Shown here in pieces: positions 2,781-7,838 of a stretch of 22,302 nucleotides of DNA. A program made the translations under genes and the position numbers. Numbering within the stretch: the stretch's first letter is position 1; each line of letters opens with the position of its first letter. Location of the stretch: positions 1 to 22,302 of IMG/VR virus record IMGVR_UViG_3300025133_000644, one strand, 5' to 3'. This stretch comes from a virus. The notes under the pieces are model-generated. The model made no database searches and was not told the origin of the DNA. It saw only the letters and a list, made by a program, of their open reading frames with translations.

Positions 2781-3440
2781 ATGACAAGGGTTTTAGTAAT
2801 AGGTGATCTACACCTACCGGCAGAACGGGATGATTATCTTGATTTCTGTCGAGACATAAAGAAAAAGTACAGAACAAATGCTACTGTGTTTATTGGAGAT
2901 GTAATCGACCATCATGCTATTTCTTTTCACAACAAGCACCCCGAAGCAGAGGCTGCTCAACAAGAGTATGGTTCTGTTATGGAATCTCTAAAAAATTGGA
3001 GAAAAATTTTCAGGGATGCTAGTGTATGTATTGGGAATCATGATGAGAGAGTCCATAGACTAGCTGCCGCATCAGGCATCCCTTCTATGTATCTTAAAGA
3101 CTATAAAACAGTATACGGCACTCCAAATTGGGAGTGGGACTACGAATTTATAATCGATGGAGTATACTATACTCACGGAACAGGATCTTCTGGTATGACA
3201 CCGGCTCTCAACATAGCAAAGTCTATGGGAAATAGTGTGGTATCAGGCCATGTTCATTCGGTGGGGGGTATTAATTATACCTGTGGTCCGAAAGAGAATA
3301 AAATATTTGGTTTTAATGTACCAAATGGAGTTGACAGAGATCACAAACTAATGTATTATGGCCGCAACTTCTTAAGAAAACCAGTCAACGGGGCTGGTGT
3401 AGTAATAGATGGAAAACCTTATATGGAGGTAATGAATTGA
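2781..3440 (+). CDS. Calcineurin-like metallophosphoesterase
   Basis: The 219-residue protein carries all the metal-binding blocks of the calcineurin-like phosphoesterase fold in order: GDLH (Asp9, His11), GD (Asp40) in GDVIDHH, GNHDE (Asn86, His87), His132 in YTHG, and GHVH (His157, His159). Such enzymes use two metal ions to hydrolyse phosphomonoesters or phosphodiesters; phage members include Ser/Thr phosphatases, nucleases and nucleotide phosphodiesterases. The substrate cannot be told from sequence. Lack of a signal peptide suggests a cytoplasmic enzyme. The gene directly abuts the previous one and its stop TGA (3438-3440) overlaps the TTG start of the next. Its place in the early block between RNA polymerase and SSB suggests a role in host takeover or nucleic acid processing; this is inference. 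Confidence 0.9.
   Translation: MTRVLVIGDLHLPAERDDYLDFCRDIKKKYRTNATVFIGDVIDHHAISFHNKHPEAEAAQQEYGSVMESLKNWRKIFRDASVCIGNHDERVHRLAAASGIPSMYLKDYKTVYGTPNWEWDYEFIIDGVYYTHGTGSSGMTPALNIAKSMGNSVVSGHVHSVGGINYTCGPKENKIFGFNVPNGVDRDHKLMYYGRNFLRKPVNGAGVVIDGKPYMEVMN
3425..3430 (+). promoter_or_regulatory. Strong Shine-Dalgarno serving a TTG start
   Basis: GGAGGT lies 6 bases before TTG 3437, which opens the only downstream frame. The nearer ATG at 3432 is in the frame of the preceding gene and runs into its own stop after two codons. The perfect Shine-Dalgarno is the main reason for accepting the TTG start. Confidence 0.65.
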
Positions 3441-3625
3441 GTACAGAAACAGAGATGAAGACCGAGAATACTGAGGCTGAAGAGCCAATGTATTGTAAGG
3501 TCGATGATATTAAGGCATTTATGGAGCAGGTAGTTATTGCCTTGCTCTCAGTCGTAAACGGAATTAATAGCTCTATGGAAGAGCTATCCAATAGGAGTGA
3601 AAATAGTGATGACAACGAAGATTAG
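3437..3625 (+). CDS. Small acidic hypothetical protein (62 aa, TTG start)
   Basis: The 62-residue product is highly acidic, with Glu-rich N-terminal (STETEMKTENTEAEE) and C-terminal (NRSENSDDNED) ends flanking a short amphipathic middle (roughly residues 22-48) that could form a helix. I do not recognise a family. The start is TTG 3437, which overlaps the TGA of the metallophosphoesterase gene and has a perfect GGAGGT behind it. The last part overlaps the start region of the SSB gene by 17 bases in another frame. Its acidity could suggest DNA mimicry or a small partner protein, but nothing in the sequence proves that. Confidence 0.6.
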   Translation: MSTETEMKTENTEAEEPMYCKVDDIKAFMEQVVIALLSVVNGINSSMEELSNRSENSDDNED

Positions 3626-4136
3626 TCCTTTTACCACGCACACGATGGACGTTGTGTGGTCCCATCTCCATGCCCATGACACCAAGTTTGGTGAAGATTC
3701 TGCTAACCACAGTATCACTGTCCTTGTTGACAAGGAGCTTCAGAAGAAGCTTGACGAGGTAGTTAAGGAAACTGGAGCAACTAAGATTAATGGAATGCGA
3801 GTTGATGATGAGGGTCGTACTCTTCTGAAAGCCAAGTCTAAGACTATGGTTAAGAAGGGTATCAAAGTATTTCCTTGTCGTGATGCCGCAGCAGAACGTA
3901 CAGAAGCAGTCCCCTTTGGAGGTGACAAGGTTCGGCTTCGCCTTGCCCCTGCTGTCCTTACCCGTGATGGTAGCTTAAGTGTTTACCTGAATGGTGTACA
4001 AATCATCGAGAAGAACTCCGGTGGTTTGGGTGACAACGGTGGGTTTGAAGCTACTTCTGGTTTCGATGGGGCAAATTTCAAAGCACCTGAATCAACGTCT
4101 TCGGACAGTGATCAGGACGATGATCTCCCCTTCTGA
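3609..4136 (+). CDS. Single-stranded DNA-binding protein, T7 gp2.5-like
   Basis: The 175-residue protein begins MTTKISPF and ends in a Gly/Asp/Ser-rich linker followed by the acidic tail SDSDQDDDLPF. An acidic tail with terminal Phe is typical of ssDNA-binding proteins (T7 gp2.5, and the DDIPF of bacterial SSB) and mediates contacts with polymerase and helicase. The body (residues about 5-140) contains alternating strands and many basic residues, fitting an OB fold. Its place between the early genes and the resolvase/helicase matches T7 gene 2.5. ATG 3609 is chosen; in-frame GTG codons at 3606 and 3597 are alternatives, and the AGGAG at 3593-3597 would fit GTG 3606 (8 bases) or ATG 3609 (11 bases). 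The stop overlaps the next ATG (TGATG). Call rests on tail, size and synteny, since the OB body is divergent. Confidence 0.83.
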   Translation: MTTKISPFTTHTMDVVWSHLHAHDTKFGEDSANHSITVLVDKELQKKLDEVVKETGATKINGMRVDDEGRTLLKAKSKTMVKKGIKVFPCRDAAAERTEAVPFGGDKVRLRLAPAVLTRDGSLSVYLNGVQIIEKNSGGLGDNGGFEATSGFDGANFKAPESTSSDSDQDDDLPF

Positions 4137-4506
4137 TGCCTGAGTGGGTTTTCCCAATCAGTCCCGTCGCAGCAAGTAGGCCCCGTGTCTCACGGCACGG
4201 GGCTTACTTTGCTGGCCCTTATAAGGTCTTCAGGAATGAGTGTATTGATATTATAGACTTCGTTCTTGGTCCAGACTTCCAGCCCTATGAGCAGCCCCTT
4301 AAGGTTGATGTCGAGTTGTTTATCCGTAGGCCTAAGACTACTAAATTAGTTATGCCTAAAGCCGACATTGATAACTTTCTCAAGGCTGTGTTAGATTCTT
4401 TGAACAAGAAACTTTGGATTGATGATAATATTATTCAATCAATATATGCCACTAAGCAATGGGCTGAGGTAGGAGAAGAGGGTTACTTTACGGTTGGAGT
4501 AGACTT

Positions 4507-4516
<10 letters not shown>
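4136..4516 (+). CDS. RusA-like Holliday junction resolvase / endodeoxyribonuclease
   Basis: The 126-residue protein has the RusA layout: an N-terminal Arg-rich segment (SRPRVSRHG, residues 14-22) and the catalytic block PKADIDNFLKAVLDSLN (Asp77, Asp79, Lys83) followed by WIDD (Asp96/Asp97). In E. coli RusA the equivalents are Asp70, Asp72, Lys76 and Asp91, with matching spacing. These homodimers cut four-way DNA junctions with a metal cofactor. In T7 this genome position, right after gp2.5, holds endonuclease I (gp3), an unrelated junction nuclease, so RusA appears to replace it. ATG 4136 overlaps the SSB stop (TGATG) and has no good Shine-Dalgarno, suggesting coupled translation. The 3' end overlaps the first tRNA by 10 bases, and the 5' coding part contains a 14-bp hairpin. 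Confidence 0.92.
4174..4209 (+). other. 14-bp hairpin inside the start of the RusA-like gene
   Basis: Arms 4174-4187 and 4196-4209 pair over 14 bp (13 Watson-Crick and one G-U, g4179-t4204) around the 8-base loop TCTCACGG. The inner part (GCCCCGTG/CACGGGGC) is unusually GC-rich for this genome. It covers about codons 13-25, which encode the Arg-rich N-terminal motif. There is no T-run after it, so it does not look like an intrinsic terminator. A role as an RNase III processing site or translational control element is inferred from T7 biology. Confidence 0.7.
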
Positions 4517-4580
<64 letters not shown>

Positions 4581-4582
4581 TA

Positions 4583-4671
4583 TGACTCTGCCGAGTACAA
4601 AGCCTTCTGAAAACGACAGGTACGGTAGTACGGGAAAGCCCGTCAGACACGGTGGCTTGTGTCCAGAGTCA
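4583..4671 (+). ncRNA. Candidate structured RNA between tRNAs, with possible pseudoknot
   Basis: The 95-base spacer between tRNA-Arg and tRNA-Leu contains no credible gene but folds strongly. Its ends pair perfectly over 8 bp (4583-4590 TGACTCTG with 4664-4671 CAGAGTCA). Directly stacked on that is a 5-bp hairpin (4646-4650 GACAC with 4659-4663 GTGTC, 8-base loop). Five loop bases (4654-4658 GGCTT) are complementary to 4600-4604 AAGCC, giving a possible pseudoknot. A further hairpin ACGGG-AAAG-CCCGT is at 4630-4643. The 8-bp plus 5-bp coaxial arrangement resembles an acceptor/T-arm, but there are no D or anticodon arms or T-loop bases, so it is not a tRNA. It may be a stable small RNA, a processing element or a ribozyme; no known consensus was recognised. 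Confidence 0.45.
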
Positions 4672-4675
4672 ATCC

Positions 4676-4748
4676 GGCTCCGTAGCCCAATGGCAGAGGC
4701 AGTGGACTTAAAATCCATACAGTCTGGGTTCGAGTCCCAGCGGAGCTA
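4676..4748 (+). tRNA. tRNA-Leu (anticodon TAA) with a short variable loop
   Basis: Acceptor GGCTCCG (4676-4682) pairs with CGGAGCT (4741-4747; 1-72 is G-U), discriminator A4748. The D-stem is only GCC/GGC (4685-4687, 4698-4700). The anticodon stem is GTGGA/TCCAT (4702-4706, 4714-4718), loop CTTAAAA, anticodon TAA at 4709-4711. The variable region is just 5 bases (4719-4723). The T-stem is CTGGG/CCCAG (4724-4728, 4736-4740) with loop TTCGAGT. It would read UUA. Bacterial tRNA-Leu normally has a long variable arm; its absence makes the charging identity uncertain. CCA is not encoded. Confidence 0.88.
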
Positions 4749-4750
4749 TT

Positions 4751-4823
4751 GGGCTGGTAGCTCAGTGGTTAGAGCACTCGACTCATAATCGATTTGTCGT
4801 CAGTTCAAATCTGACCCAGCCTA
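4751..4823 (+). tRNA. tRNA with CAT anticodon, probably Ile2 (alternatively elongator Met)
   Basis: Acceptor GGGCTGG (4751-4757) pairs with CCAGCCT (4816-4822; 1-72 is G-U), discriminator A4823. D-stem GCTC/GAGC (4760-4763, 4772-4775) with an 8-base loop; anticodon stem 4777-4781/4789-4793 has a C-T mismatch at the outer pair; loop CTCATAA, anticodon CAT 4784-4786; T-stem GTCAG/CTGAC. The D-loop AGTGGTTA and the core GACTCATAATC closely follow the pattern I recall for bacterial tRNA-Ile2, whose C34 is converted to lysidine to read AUA. It lacks initiator features. Ile2 also fits the other two tRNAs, which both serve A-ending codons. No CCA is encoded. Confidence 0.9.
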
Positions 4824-4837
4824 TTAAGGAGAAGAAC

Positions 4838-4861
4838 ATGTATATTAAGGAGTTACCATGA
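4838..4861 (+). CDS. Possible 7-codon leader ORF
   Basis: ATG 4838 follows a strong AAGGAGAAGA Shine-Dalgarno and opens a frame encoding MYIKELP before TGA 4859-4861, which overlaps the ATG (4858) of the next ORF. That next ORF has its own AAGGAG at 4848-4853. The leader could help deliver ribosomes to the 40-residue gene after the tRNA cluster, or it could be a chance product of duplicated Shine-Dalgarno sequences. No function is known. Confidence 0.3.
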   Translation: MYIKELP

Positions 4862-4980
4862 AAAGATTTGACCCCGAAGAACTACCATGGTATGATGATG
4901 CATACTTTGATGGTATTGATATCATTATCGACCAAGAAATTCTTGATGCTTGGGAAGATGAGGATGAGGATGCCATCTAG
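4858..4980 (+). CDS. Acidic 40-residue hypothetical protein
   Basis: ATG 4858, 5 bases behind AAGGAG, encodes 40 residues ending at TAG 4978-4980. The product is very acidic (about a third Asp and Glu), with a C-terminal WEDEDEDAI tail, and has no membrane segment. It overlaps the start of the zincin gene by 11 bases in another frame, and the repeated GAGGAT of its tail supplies that gene's Shine-Dalgarno, so translation of the two is likely linked. I do not recognise a family. Small acidic phage peptides often bind host proteins or mimic DNA, but that is speculation here. Confidence 0.55.
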   Translation: MKRFDPEELPWYDDAYFDGIDIIIDQEILDAWEDEDEDAI

Positions 4981-5299
4981 TATATACTTTATTGAGAAGA
5001 CTATTGAGTGGTGTCGTGGCCTCTTCTTAATCAACAGTGAGTATGTCATTGATTATAAGAGAATTGAACTAGAAGATTGTTGGGGTGTCACAGAAATGTT
5101 AAACGACACTTCATTTATGATCTCTATCCATCCAAACATGTGCGTACGCGATACAATAGCCACTGTTATTCACGAGATGCTGCATGTTAAACAGTGGGTT
5201 CATGCAGCAAAGAGAGATTCTTGGGACGACGGCGAGCAGGAGAGTGAAAGCCTGCAATATAAACTAACAGATCTTATGTGGAGTCTTGGTCTAATCTAA
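4970..5299 (+). CDS. Small HExxH metallopeptidase-like protein (zincin)
   Basis: The 109-residue protein contains VIHEMLHVKQ, a HExxH zinc-peptidase motif (His68, Glu69, His72), preceded by a hydrophobic helix and followed about 20 residues later by Glu-rich GEQESES (Glu89, Glu91, Glu93), any of which could be the third ligand of a gluzincin. Size and layout are like those of minigluzincins and other minimal zincins; the exact family is not certain. No signal peptide is seen, so a cytoplasmic target is likely. ATG codons at 4958, 4964 and 4970 are all in frame; 4970 is preferred because GAGG lies 6 bases before it. Frame openness back to a TTG at 4868 only reflects overlap with the acidic 40-mer. 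In T7 the equivalent position holds the zinc amidase gp3.5, which is unrelated in motif. Confidence 0.75.
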   Translation: MPSSIYFIEKTIEWCRGLFLINSEYVIDYKRIELEDCWGVTEMLNDTSFMISIHPNMCVRDTIATVIHEMLHVKQWVHAAKRDSWDDGEQESESLQYKLTDLMWSLGLI

Positions 5300-5315
5300 A
5301 TAAAGGATAAAACTG

Positions 5316-5588
5316 ATGGGTAGATTAAAATCATTCATGTTACTTGAAGGTGGCGAGGCAATTATGTGGGAGCGACACGGTGAGGTCTATGAAGGACAAG
5401 TAGAATACCTCCAGTCCGATACCCACTCAATGACCGGGGAATCTTATGTCGTTTCTCGGCAAGATGGCGAGGTGTATAAGGAATATACCGTATACCCCTC
5501 AGAAATACGTTTCGATAAGATGATACAGGCCAGAAATATTAAGAGTCGGCTTGATACACTTATAAGAGGAGAAGATTTAGATGATTAA
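5316..5588 (+). CDS. Hypothetical protein (90 aa)
   Basis: This 90-residue protein is not recognised. It is mixed in charge and appears rich in beta strands (GEAIMWERHGEVYEGQVEYL, then SYVVSRQDGEVYKEYTVYP), which suggests a small beta-barrel, followed by a helical, acidic C terminus (RLDTLIRGEDLDD). No membrane segment is present. ATG 5316 has AAAGGA 8 bases upstream, and the gene ends within the first codons of the lipoprotein-like gene, overlapping by 8 bases. The tight coupling argues that it is real and co-translated with the membrane-protein pair that follows. Confidence 0.7.
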   Translation: MGRLKSFMLLEGGEAIMWERHGEVYEGQVEYLQSDTHSMTGESYVVSRQDGEVYKEYTVYPSEIRFDKMIQARNIKSRLDTLIRGEDLDD

Positions 5589-5973
5589 ATTACTAGCACT
5601 CGCGTTGGCAACGTGTATAATGGTAGGATGCAGTGCCACCAGCATCATACCGGGTATGTCTTCGATGCCAGACGGAGCAGTGACTGCCGTCTCGGGATCA
5701 AGTGCATGCTCACCCATGCTCGGGTGGATCGGGGGCCTATGTCTCATAGGAGGCATGGTCCTACTCGTAATTTCCAGAGGAACTATGGGATGGAGGCCTC
5801 TGATTGGTGGTATAATTTTTATAGCCATTAACTGGGCACTTGCCTTGTATGGTGGTTGGTTCTTCCTGCCTGTTGCTATCTGTACTGGTGCAATCAGTCT
5901 AGCATGGACAGGAAAGATTGTTTGGAAGATCGTCAACGATGACGAGATTAAACTTAAGGAGATGAAGCTATGA
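5581..5973 (+). CDS. Membrane protein with lipoprotein-like signal
   Basis: The 130-residue protein begins with MIKLLALALATCIMVGC, a charged start, hydrophobic core and a plausible lipobox (MVGC, Cys17). A Ser/Gly/Pro-rich stretch (18-42) follows, then hydrophobic segments at about 45-63, 71-88 and 92-113, and a charged, Lys-rich C terminus. It may thus be an inner-membrane protein or lipoprotein with up to three further membrane helices; the lipobox Met at -3 is not ideal. ATG 5581 has AGGAG about 9 bases upstream. Its TGA overlaps the ATG of the 41-residue membrane protein at 5970. Possible roles include superinfection exclusion or envelope modification; nothing specific is visible. No endolysin neighbours it, so a lysis role is not favoured. 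Confidence 0.7.
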   Translation: MIKLLALALATCIMVGCSATSIIPGMSSMPDGAVTAVSGSSACSPMLGWIGGLCLIGGMVLLVISRGTMGWRPLIGGIIFIAINWALALYGGWFFLPVAICTGAISLAWTGKIVWKIVNDDEIKLKEMKL

Positions 5974-6095
5974 TGGAATGGATTAATAGCACGCTTGGTA
6001 TTATCTTTTATTCTGTGGCAATGTTCTCTGCTGGTGCATGGATGGGTCGTCCTTTGATGACGTGGCTGTACTACAAGATGCCGTGGACAAAGTGA
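5970..6095 (+). CDS. 41-residue single-span membrane peptide
   Basis: ATG 5970 overlaps the previous stop (ATGA) and encodes 41 residues. The middle (about residues 8-27) is a hydrophobic span with small residues (SVAMFSAGAW), and the C terminus is Trp/Tyr/Lys-rich (TWLYYKMPWTK), a typical interfacial end. GGAGATGAAG lies upstream as a Shine-Dalgarno inside the previous gene. Coupling with the 130-residue membrane protein suggests that the two act together. I do not recognise a family. Holin- or antiholin-like or exclusion functions are possible but unsupported. Confidence 0.65.
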   Translation: MMEWINSTLGIIFYSVAMFSAGAWMGRPLMTWLYYKMPWTK

Positions 6096-6119
6096 GATTA
6101 AAGTAAAGTGAGGATTTAA

Positions 6120-7838
6120 ATGTCTAAAGTTATTGAACGGGACAGGTGTCCAGCCTGTGCTGCGAAGGGCGAGGATACGAAGGGTGACAACTTAGCTATC
6201 TATGATGATGGTCATAAGTTTTGTTACGCATGTAAATATTATGAACACGGAGGTACATCTAAAGTGATGTCTAAACAACCCCCCGCAACCAATGGCCTGA
6301 AGTTCCTTAACGGTAAGCTTCAGGCCATTGGTAGTCGAAAGATTACTGACGAAACTGTACGCAAGTACGACTATGAAACCATTGAGAAAGAAGGTAAGCG
6401 GGTAGAGATCGCTTCGTTCTATAGGGATGGTGTAAGGATTGCACAGAAATTGCGTGGTCCTAATAAAACTTTCCAATGGAGAGGCGAAACATCTGGAGTT
6501 CCCTTGTGGGGACAACACCTATTCAAGAAGAATGGTGGTCGGATGATCGTTATTACCGAGGGTGAGATTGATTGCATGACAGTCAGTCAGCTTAATGGGA
6601 ATAAGTATCCTGTTGTCTCTCTTCCTAACGGTGCCGCTGGTGCTGCAAGGGCAATCAAAGACAACCTTGAGTTTGTTTGCGGTTACAAGGAAGTTATCTT
6701 GATGTTCGATCAGGATGAGGCAGGTCAAGAGGCAGTCAAGTCTGTTGCTGATCTCCTCCCCCCCGGTAAATGTAAGGTAGCCAAGCTGCCTTATAAGGAT
6801 GCTAATGAATGTCTTGTTAATAACCAAGGTAAGGCAGTCATCAATGCTATGTGGGAGGCACAGCAGTACTCACCTGATGAGATTGTTCATGTGTCTCAGG
6901 TTATCAATGAAGGAATGGTTGACCCCCGAGTCTATCCCTTTCCCTTTGACAACCTATCTGAGTTCCTTCTTGGCCAGCGTAGTGGAGAAATTACTCTTTG
7001 GGCTAGCGGCACTGGCAGTGGCAAGTCTACTATCCTACGTGAGGTTATCCATCATCATTTAATTGAAGGTCGTAGTGTTGGTGCTATCATGCTTGAAGAA
7101 TCACCACAAGAAACGGTGGATGATATGGTATCTCTAATGATTAACAAACCTGTTCGAGCTATTCGAGCAAAGAAAATCATGAATGAGCTACGTGTGAAAC
7201 TAGGTAAAGATCCTATTAACATTGATATCATTGATGATCTAACCGATGAGGAGTATGCGGATGCTAGGAAACTGCTTGAAACCAACTCCCTTTATATTTA
7301 TGATCACTTGGGTAACTCGGGTCTACAGAATCTGTGTGCTCGTATTGAGTTCATGGCTGTATCTCTTGATGTTGACGTTATTGTTCTCGATCATATTACC
7401 GCTGCTGCTGCTGGCCTACTTAGTACAGACAGTGACTTCGACGGAGGATCATCAGAGCGACTCCTTATAGATAACATTATGAAAGAGCTTCGGTCCTTAG
7501 TATCAAGAACTGGTGTTCGAATTGATGTCGTCTCTCAACTTAAGAAGACAGTCAAGGCATACGAAGAGGGTGATCGGATTACCCTTCAGGATCTGCGTGG
7601 CTCTGGCTCCCTTGCTAGTGTACCAAACACAGTCATTGCTCTTGAGCGTGACAGGCAGAACCCTGATCCAGCTGTTGCCAATACTACCACTGTTCGTGTT
7701 CTCAAGAACAGGCTCACTGGTAGATCTGGAGTAGCAACATGTCTTCTGTTTGATCATGGAACTGGTAGGCTTAAAGAAATAGACTTTGCTGTTGGAGATG
7801 ACGGAAAGGTTTTAACAGATGATGCGACTGGCTTTTGA
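6120..7838 (+). CDS. Primase-helicase, T7 gp4-like
   Basis: The 572-residue protein (566 in T7) makes RNA primers and unwinds DNA at the phage fork. The N-terminal zinc-binding domain has Cys10, Cys13, Cys35, Cys38. A TOPRIM primase domain follows with ITEGEID (Glu147) and FDQDEAG (Asp197, Asp199). The RecA-like DnaB-type helicase has Walker A GTGSGKST (297-304, Lys302), Walker B IVLDH and a late motif LRGSGSLASVPNTVIALERD matching the T7 helicase. The C terminus LTDDATGF ends in Phe after acidic residues, as in T7 gp4, where the tail docks on the polymerase. ATG 6120 has GAGG upstream. A strong internal Shine-Dalgarno before Met50 suggests a second, zinc-finger-less product. The 3' end overlaps the polymerase gene by 20 bases. 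Confidence 0.97.
   Translation: MSKVIERDRCPACAAKGEDTKGDNLAIYDDGHKFCYACKYYEHGGTSKVMSKQPPATNGLKFLNGKLQAIGSRKITDETVRKYDYETIEKEGKRVEIASFYRDGVRIAQKLRGPNKTFQWRGETSGVPLWGQHLFKKNGGRMIVITEGEIDCMTVSQLNGNKYPVVSLPNGAAGAARAIKDNLEFVCGYKEVILMFDQDEAGQEAVKSVADLLPPGKCKVAKLPYKDANECLVNNQGKAVINAMWEAQQYSPDEIVHVSQVINEGMVDPRVYPFPFDNLSEFLLGQRSGEITLWASGTGSGKSTILREVIHHHLIEGRSVGAIMLEESPQETVDDMVSLMINKPVRAIRAKKIMNELRVKLGKDPINIDIIDDLTDEEYADARKLLETNSLYIYDHLGNSGLQNLCARIEFMAVSLDVDVIVLDHITAAAAGLLSTDSDFDGGSSERLLIDNIMKELRSLVSRTGVRIDVVSQLKKTVKAYEEGDRITLQDLRGSGSLASVPNTVIALERDRQNPDPAVANTTTVRVLKNRLTGRSGVATCLLFDHGTGRLKEIDFAVGDDGKVLTDDATGF
6249..6269 (+). promoter_or_regulatory. Probable internal translation start in the primase-helicase gene
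   Basis: GGAGGT at 6249-6254 is followed by in-frame GTG 6264 (9 bases) and ATG 6267 (12 bases), codons 49 and 50. Initiation here would give a form of about 523 residues that lacks the zinc-binding domain but keeps TOPRIM and helicase. T7 makes such a pair (gp4A and gp4B, from Met64). The Shine-Dalgarno is better than the one at the main start. Confidence 0.6.
6288..6332 (+). repeat. Perfect 15-bp inverted repeat in the primase-helicase gene
   Basis: Arms 6288-6302 (ACCAATGGCCTGAAG) and 6318-6332 (CTTCAGGCCATTGGT) are exact reverse complements separated by 15 bases. The RNA would be a long stable hairpin starting 19 bases after the internal ATG 6267, in the linker between zinc-binding and TOPRIM domains. 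Chance occurrence of a perfect 15-bp pair at this distance is unlikely. Confidence 0.85.

Follow-up and report, generated by a model that had tools for sequence, protein, structure and literature searches.

The 94-nt spacer between the tRNA-Arg and tRNA-Leu genes of the window (the whole 22,302-nt stretch of DNA analysed, which is itself a 22.3-kb virus record) appears to encode a conserved, pseudoknotted, stem-closed small non-coding RNA, shortened here to 89 nt. In our alignments, a closing stem (P1), a hairpin abutting it (P5), and a pseudoknot made by the P5 loop are the conserved core of an RNA family with compensatory changes. The strongest support for this observation is comparative, in that these helices are found again, with compensatory changes, in relatives. 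We consider it likely that the element is a trans-acting small RNA that would be cut out by tRNA processing where it lies in tRNA clusters.

The gene set of the window is that of a T7-like podovirus and also includes primase-helicase and PolA genes. Comparison of the window PolA with named collections returned mostly marine Autographiviridae (37-39% identity), and the source is a marine virus of bacteria. The features of the locus are as follows.

91-2532: phage RNA polymerase gene
4136-4516: RusA-like resolvase gene
4506-4581, plus strand: tRNA-Arg (TCT), upstream neighbour (ARAGORN and Rfam RF00005)
4583-4671, plus strand: whole element, a pseudoknotted RNA and short family member (covariance model R1)
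4583-4590, plus strand: P1 5' strand, TGACTCTG; 5 of 8 family P1 pairs changed on both sides
4591-4600, plus strand: J1, conserved single strand CCGAGTACAA leading from P1 to the pseudoknot; nearly invariant in 14 distinct family cores
4601-4604, plus strand: pseudoknot 5' strand, AGCC; A4601-U4657 becomes G-C in some members
4607-4619, plus strand: small hairpin CTG-AAAACGA-CAG, read from the sequence; the model alignment puts a deletion there
4620-4627, plus strand: GTACGGTA, corresponding to the post-P4 segment of long members (TTACGGTA) by comparison with L082-L089
4630-4643, plus strand: V2 hairpin ACGGG-AAAG-CCCGT, a variable-hairpin site in other members
4646-4663, plus strand: P5 hairpin GACACG-GTGGCT-TGTGTC; 6 of 6 P5 pairs changed on both sides across the family
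4654-4657, plus strand: pseudoknot 3' strand, GGCT, in the P5 loop; family alignments mapped to window coordinates
4664-4671, plus strand: P1 3' strand, CAGAGTCA; 5 of 8 family P1 pairs changed on both sides
4676-4748, plus strand: tRNA-Leu (TAA), downstream neighbour (ARAGORN and Rfam RF00005)
4750-4824, plus strand: tRNA-Met (CAT) (ARAGORN and Rfam RF00005)

An open reading frame at 4582-4788 crosses two tRNAs and was taken as spurious. Promoter-like matches around the element were only moderately above shuffles and delimited no transcription unit. The tRNA-Leu (UAA) gene at 4676-4748 is only 73 nt long, with a short variable arm compared with bacterial class II leucine tRNAs, and this form recurs in relatives.

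Architecture of the spacer element

An earlier note on this DNA had proposed that the spacer ends pair over 8 bp, that a 5-bp hairpin stacks on this stem, that five bases of its loop can pair with 4600-4604, and that a further hairpin lies at 4630-4643; each of these features was found again in the sequence. P1 is a perfect closing stem of 8 Watson-Crick pairs in the window, and P5 abuts it with zero gap, the stem GACAC/GTGTC (4646-4650/4659-4663) being extended by a sixth pair, G-U, at 4651-4658. The complementarity of AAGCC (4600-4604) to GGCTT (4654-4658) in the P5 loop corresponds to the family strand AGCC (4601-4604) plus one A, while the V2 hairpin is formed by 5 bp between ACGGG (4630-4634) and CCCGT (4639-4643). 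In dinucleotide-preserving shuffles of the spacer, the 8-bp end stem was obtained in 102 of 200,000 cases and the full layout of stem, abutting hairpin, and loop complement in 1 of 200,000. Plain minimum-free-energy folding of the spacer gave a weak signal (z = -1.9 to -2.2), because such folding cannot model the pseudoknot and prefers another fold.

Where the other members found all carry a 3-bp helix (P2), a variable hairpin (V1), and a helix (P4) with a TGTAAGAT loop, the window has none of the three, and the short hairpin at 4607-4619 occupies their place. Since P1, J1, the pseudoknot, and P5 are intact in the window, the P2-V1-P4 domain was treated as peripheral. We propose that P1 and P5, together with the pseudoknot that the P5 loop makes with the strand following J1, would form one compact core; covariation shows these pairings, and in three dimensions the conserved J1 strand may run along P5.

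Family membership and compensatory changes

The two ends of the element were first picked up by BLAST in L020 and L067 (L-numbers denote fetched stretches, with L001 covering 3000-6330 of the window and L088 and L085 being the contigs of L020 and L067, respectively). Pattern scans of IMG/VR then returned L082-L089, followed by L097 and L100 and finally by L113-L118, L120, and L121, so that the family is carried by at least 18 IMG/VR contigs besides the window, with identical copies in L113 and L116 and close ones in L114 and L115. Full-length members share P1 (8 bp), J1 (YCGRGUACAA), the strand pairing with the P5 loop, P2, V1, P4 with its 8-nt loop (UGUAAGAU), an optional V2 hairpin, and a 6-bp P5 abutting P1.

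In a 12-member alignment made without the window, 98.6% of the cells were paired, and pairing in slid controls was only 39-48%. Changes on both sides were observed in 17 of 31 pairs, a level reached by 0 of 500 shuffles, with most of these changes splitting two clades and so representing few independent events. An alignment restricted to the core, with 14 distinct members and the window among them, gave the same result (98.4% paired), and P5 was paired in 100% of the cells. These alignments call for caution, having been guided by hand: one clade carries a single N placeholder in its P5 loop, and one V2 hairpin was removed. P1 changes between GACTCTG/CAGAGTC and CGTTCCY/RGGAACG; more independent evidence comes from changes within clades, which affect P5, V1, P4, the pseudoknot, and the last pair of P1. 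At the pseudoknot pair 4601-4657, most members have A-U, and L113, L118, L120, and L121 have G-C. Covariation in homologues, which the earlier note had named as one check on its structure, was thus found and extends to the pseudoknot. An alternative pairing of AAGCC with a GGCUU after P4 is possible in L114, L115, L117, and L118 and impossible in the others; as it is limited to these four contigs, the loop pseudoknot was preferred.

The window copy was then compared with covariance model R1, which had been built without it. R1 matched exactly 4583-4671 on the plus strand as its sole match in the window (40.5 bits, E=1.2e-9, E-values of home-made models being rough), and the best chance matches scored 20.4 bits (an isolate phage) and 19.5 bits (coding DNA). 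Among the 89 fetched stretches, R1 matched the window and L020 only. The window copy has P1, the abutting P5, and the pseudoknotted pairing of the P5 loop with the post-J1 strand, the pairs of this pseudoknot having been checked by hand. Moreover, the two ends of the element show 100% identity over 26-30 nt with contigs that reach only 64-69% DNA identity in their coding genes, a difference that points to strong selection or recent transfer.

Further searches covered isolate phages and other collections, in copies of the databases from which near relatives of the window may be missing. Among INPHARED phages, a similarity search with the window element and an L097-type element gave weak matches in coding genes only. 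R1 found no member in eight isolate or fosmid phage records; its three matches there, one of 20 bits that lies antisense inside a ribonucleotide reductase gene and two weaker ones, were judged to be chance. The IMG/VR pattern CGAGTACAARGCCTTC yielded no further member, its extra matches looking like coding sequence with R1 scores of at most 19.5 bits, and L119 was set aside as a chance match in apparent coding sequence. Scans of two genome collections likewise gave no member, one being empty and the other returning two contigs of Bacilli metagenome-assembled genomes that R1 did not recognise.

Genomic settings and proposed mode of action

The family occurs in three settings. The element sits in the Arg-Leu tRNA spacer of the window, L082, and L085; within tandem arrays of other stem-closed elements, with no tRNAs, in L020, L083, L084, L086, L087, and L089; and 3' of a manA RNA in a third group, at a distance of 4-6 nt in L113, L114, L117, L118, and L120 and of 171-179 nt in L097 and L121. 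The arrays are joined by linkers like ACAATCTA, lie upstream of the RNA polymerase gene where they can be placed, and end shortly 5' of a small ORF with a ribosome-binding site. The presence of the same RNA in three unrelated settings argues for a function of its own.

Few further array-bearing contigs came from a related-loci search that used the L020 RNA polymerase as query. Tandem stem-closed arrays were seen in L020 (100-510), L039 (1-400), L084 (minus strand), L086, L087, and L089, with no Rfam match except tmRNA in L087. Matches to tmRNA or permuted tmRNA in element-bearing contigs lie at about 2221-2302 of L087 (minus strand), 6560-6896 of L121, and 7212-7472 of L120.

The position next to manA, a riboswitch candidate (IMG/VR; PMC2864571), and the arrays that stop just before a small ORF could suggest a cis-acting riboswitch-like or leader domain controlling a downstream gene, as could L121, in which an ORF starts a few bases past the element. 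We regard this explanation as unlikely because the downstream feature differs between genomes: a tRNA gene comes next in the window, L082, and L085, a terminator-like hairpin follows in L114, L117, and L120 (z -4 to -6.5) and a weaker one in L100, and L097 has a consensus promoter for the next gene 3' of the element. The ORF of L121 indicates that a terminator is not universal; the mechanical terminator scan missed the L097 and L114 hairpins, both of which were read from the sequence, that of L114 also being folded. No downstream gene is common to all settings, and a conserved 5'-UTR position before related genes, the usual mark of a riboswitch, was not observed, what follows being a tRNA, a structured element, a terminator-like hairpin, or an ORF.

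The exact fit of the element to the Arg-Leu spacer of the window, and its presence in the same slot in L082 and L085, would also suit a cis element needed for the processing or folding of the flanking tRNAs, one of the roles suggested in the earlier note. This reading is highly improbable, since the element is missing from relatives that carry the same tRNAs and occurs in other phages without tRNAs: the three tRNA genes keep their order in L007, L009, L014, L016, L017, and L019, where the Arg-Leu spacer is 2-3 nt, and no tRNAs accompany the element in L020, L084, L086, and L087. Absence from close relatives with the same tRNAs had been listed in the earlier note among the grounds for discarding its proposal; it was observed, and it counts against the processing role.

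Among the IMG/VR PolA relatives, the Arg-Leu slot is variable, being empty or holding small ORFs or other elements. This variability, together with the window copy being alone in lacking P2-P4, could fit a decayed remnant or selfish insert, the family being real and the window copy a non-functional leftover. The window copy could be partly decayed; as an explanation of the copy as a whole, we find a leftover very unlikely, as decay would strike helices and loops alike, whereas the retained core is perfect, with 8 of 8 P1 pairs, 6 of 6 P5 pairs including one G-U, and J1 and the pseudoknot unchanged.

In L035 the Arg-Leu slot holds a different stem-closed element. In the closest relatives, L003 (4840-5347) and L004 (287-794), it is 508 nt long and contains two small ORFs as well as a partial copy of tRNA-Leu, which continues into what may be another structured element. 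Other inter-tRNA stem-closed elements were seen in L023 (4014-4062), L035 (1966-2026 and 2101-2178), and the Leu-Met spacer of L067/L085, the pseudoknot type of L067 being found again in the L020 array. Closing stems of 9, 11, and 19 pairs in these other spacers were unreached in 500 shuffles.

We therefore return to the trans-acting small RNA, which we favour. The element would be co-transcribed with tRNA-Arg, tRNA-Leu, and tRNA-Met and may be released by the maturation cuts that form the tRNA-Arg 3' end and the tRNA-Leu 5' end, after which the closed P1 stem and the pseudoknot would stabilise the freed RNA. Once free, it would work in trans, and J1 and the pseudoknot would most likely be what it presents to a partner, whether protein or RNA, during infection. 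The earlier suggestion of a structured, pseudoknotted RNA is borne out by the conserved core and its compensatory changes, and its further suggestion of a stable small RNA is probably correct.

Comparison with known structured RNAs

No Rfam family matched the element, whether in the window at the gathering score, in L001 up to E=5, or in the relatives searched. Conservation with compensating mutations and the lack of a catalogued match together suggest that the element is probably a functional viral RNA of an undescribed type. ARAGORN and the Rfam tRNA and tmRNA models returned the three neighbouring tRNAs and nothing else; we also set aside an interpretation as a tRNA-like or permuted tRNA, in which P1 stacks on P5 as an acceptor does on a T-arm, for lack of a cloverleaf or tRNA model match.

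Theta ribozymes are small pseudoknotted HDV-like phage RNAs that lie by tRNA genes and cleave at the tRNA 3' end (PMC10879173), and the element resembles them in being small, pseudoknotted, and adjacent to tRNA genes in a phage. This likeness, including the position beside a tRNA 3' end, is what would speak for a new self-cleaving ribozyme that separates or trims neighbouring RNAs, a reading to which we give very little credence. No Rfam ribozyme, theta or HDV-like types included, matched up to E = 5 in L001, in agreement with the earlier statement that no hammerhead or HDV-type consensus fits. The layout also differs from that of theta ribozymes, as the entire RNA is enclosed by its outer stem and a hairpin loop near the 3' end makes the pseudoknot. 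Moreover, the window copy lacks the P4 loop that is invariant in other members, and the element is present where no cut is obviously needed, so that the self-cleaving RNA once proposed gained no support.

GOLLD and ROOL are structured phage RNAs often found near tRNA islands, GOLLD often exceeding 800 nt (PMC12286853). The element shares with them its structure and its location near phage tRNAs and differs from them in that they are much larger, and their Rfam models gave no match in the window or the relatives searched.

The manA and wcaG RNAs were described as riboswitch candidates from marine metagenomes and T4-like cyanophages by Weinberg et al. 2010 (PMC2864571), and both are catalogued as cis-regulatory. 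Like the element, manA (RF01745) is a marine phage RNA found near tRNAs, and it adjoins the element in several contigs; it differs in sequence and fold, is about 200 nt long, and gave no match in the window at the gathering score or in L001 up to E=5, and the window is without manA. The wcaG RNA (RF01761) resembles the element as a phage RNA within a tRNA cluster, that of S-CREM1, but does not match it and is catalogued as cis-regulatory. In the isolate cyanophage S-CREM1, manA takes up the Leu-Asn tRNA spacer, lying 1 nt from tRNA-Leu and touching tRNA-Asn (PMC9964418); manA and wcaG lie inside the tRNA cluster of its record OP535465 (L147; 1633-2002 and 1246-1462). In ACG-2014f KJ019102 (L152), ARAGORN found unannotated tRNA-Arg and tRNA-Asn genes around a 213-nt spacer in its manA-like region. 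The occurrence of manA beside the element in several genomes, and its filling of a tRNA spacer in an isolate, give a concrete reason to test trans-action against the riboswitch reading, raising the possibility that manA and wcaG also act in trans.

Judging from the tandem arrays of related phages, there may be a larger set of viral RNAs. As a tentative extension, which we hold to be less likely than not, the element may be one of a set of exchangeable stem-closed RNA modules of marine phages, manA and wcaG among them, that are slotted between tRNAs or into ACAATCTA-linked tandem arrays and would contribute to host takeover by acting in trans, each alone or together as a single multi-domain RNA.

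The role of non-tRNA spacer RNAs in phage tRNA clusters is an old question. Phage T4 encodes its stable RNAs C and D, small non-tRNA RNAs, within the tRNA cluster, and the likeness of the element to these is one of location alone. A well-supported RNA family is hereby added to phage tRNA clusters, and the element is a further case of a structured RNA in such a cluster.
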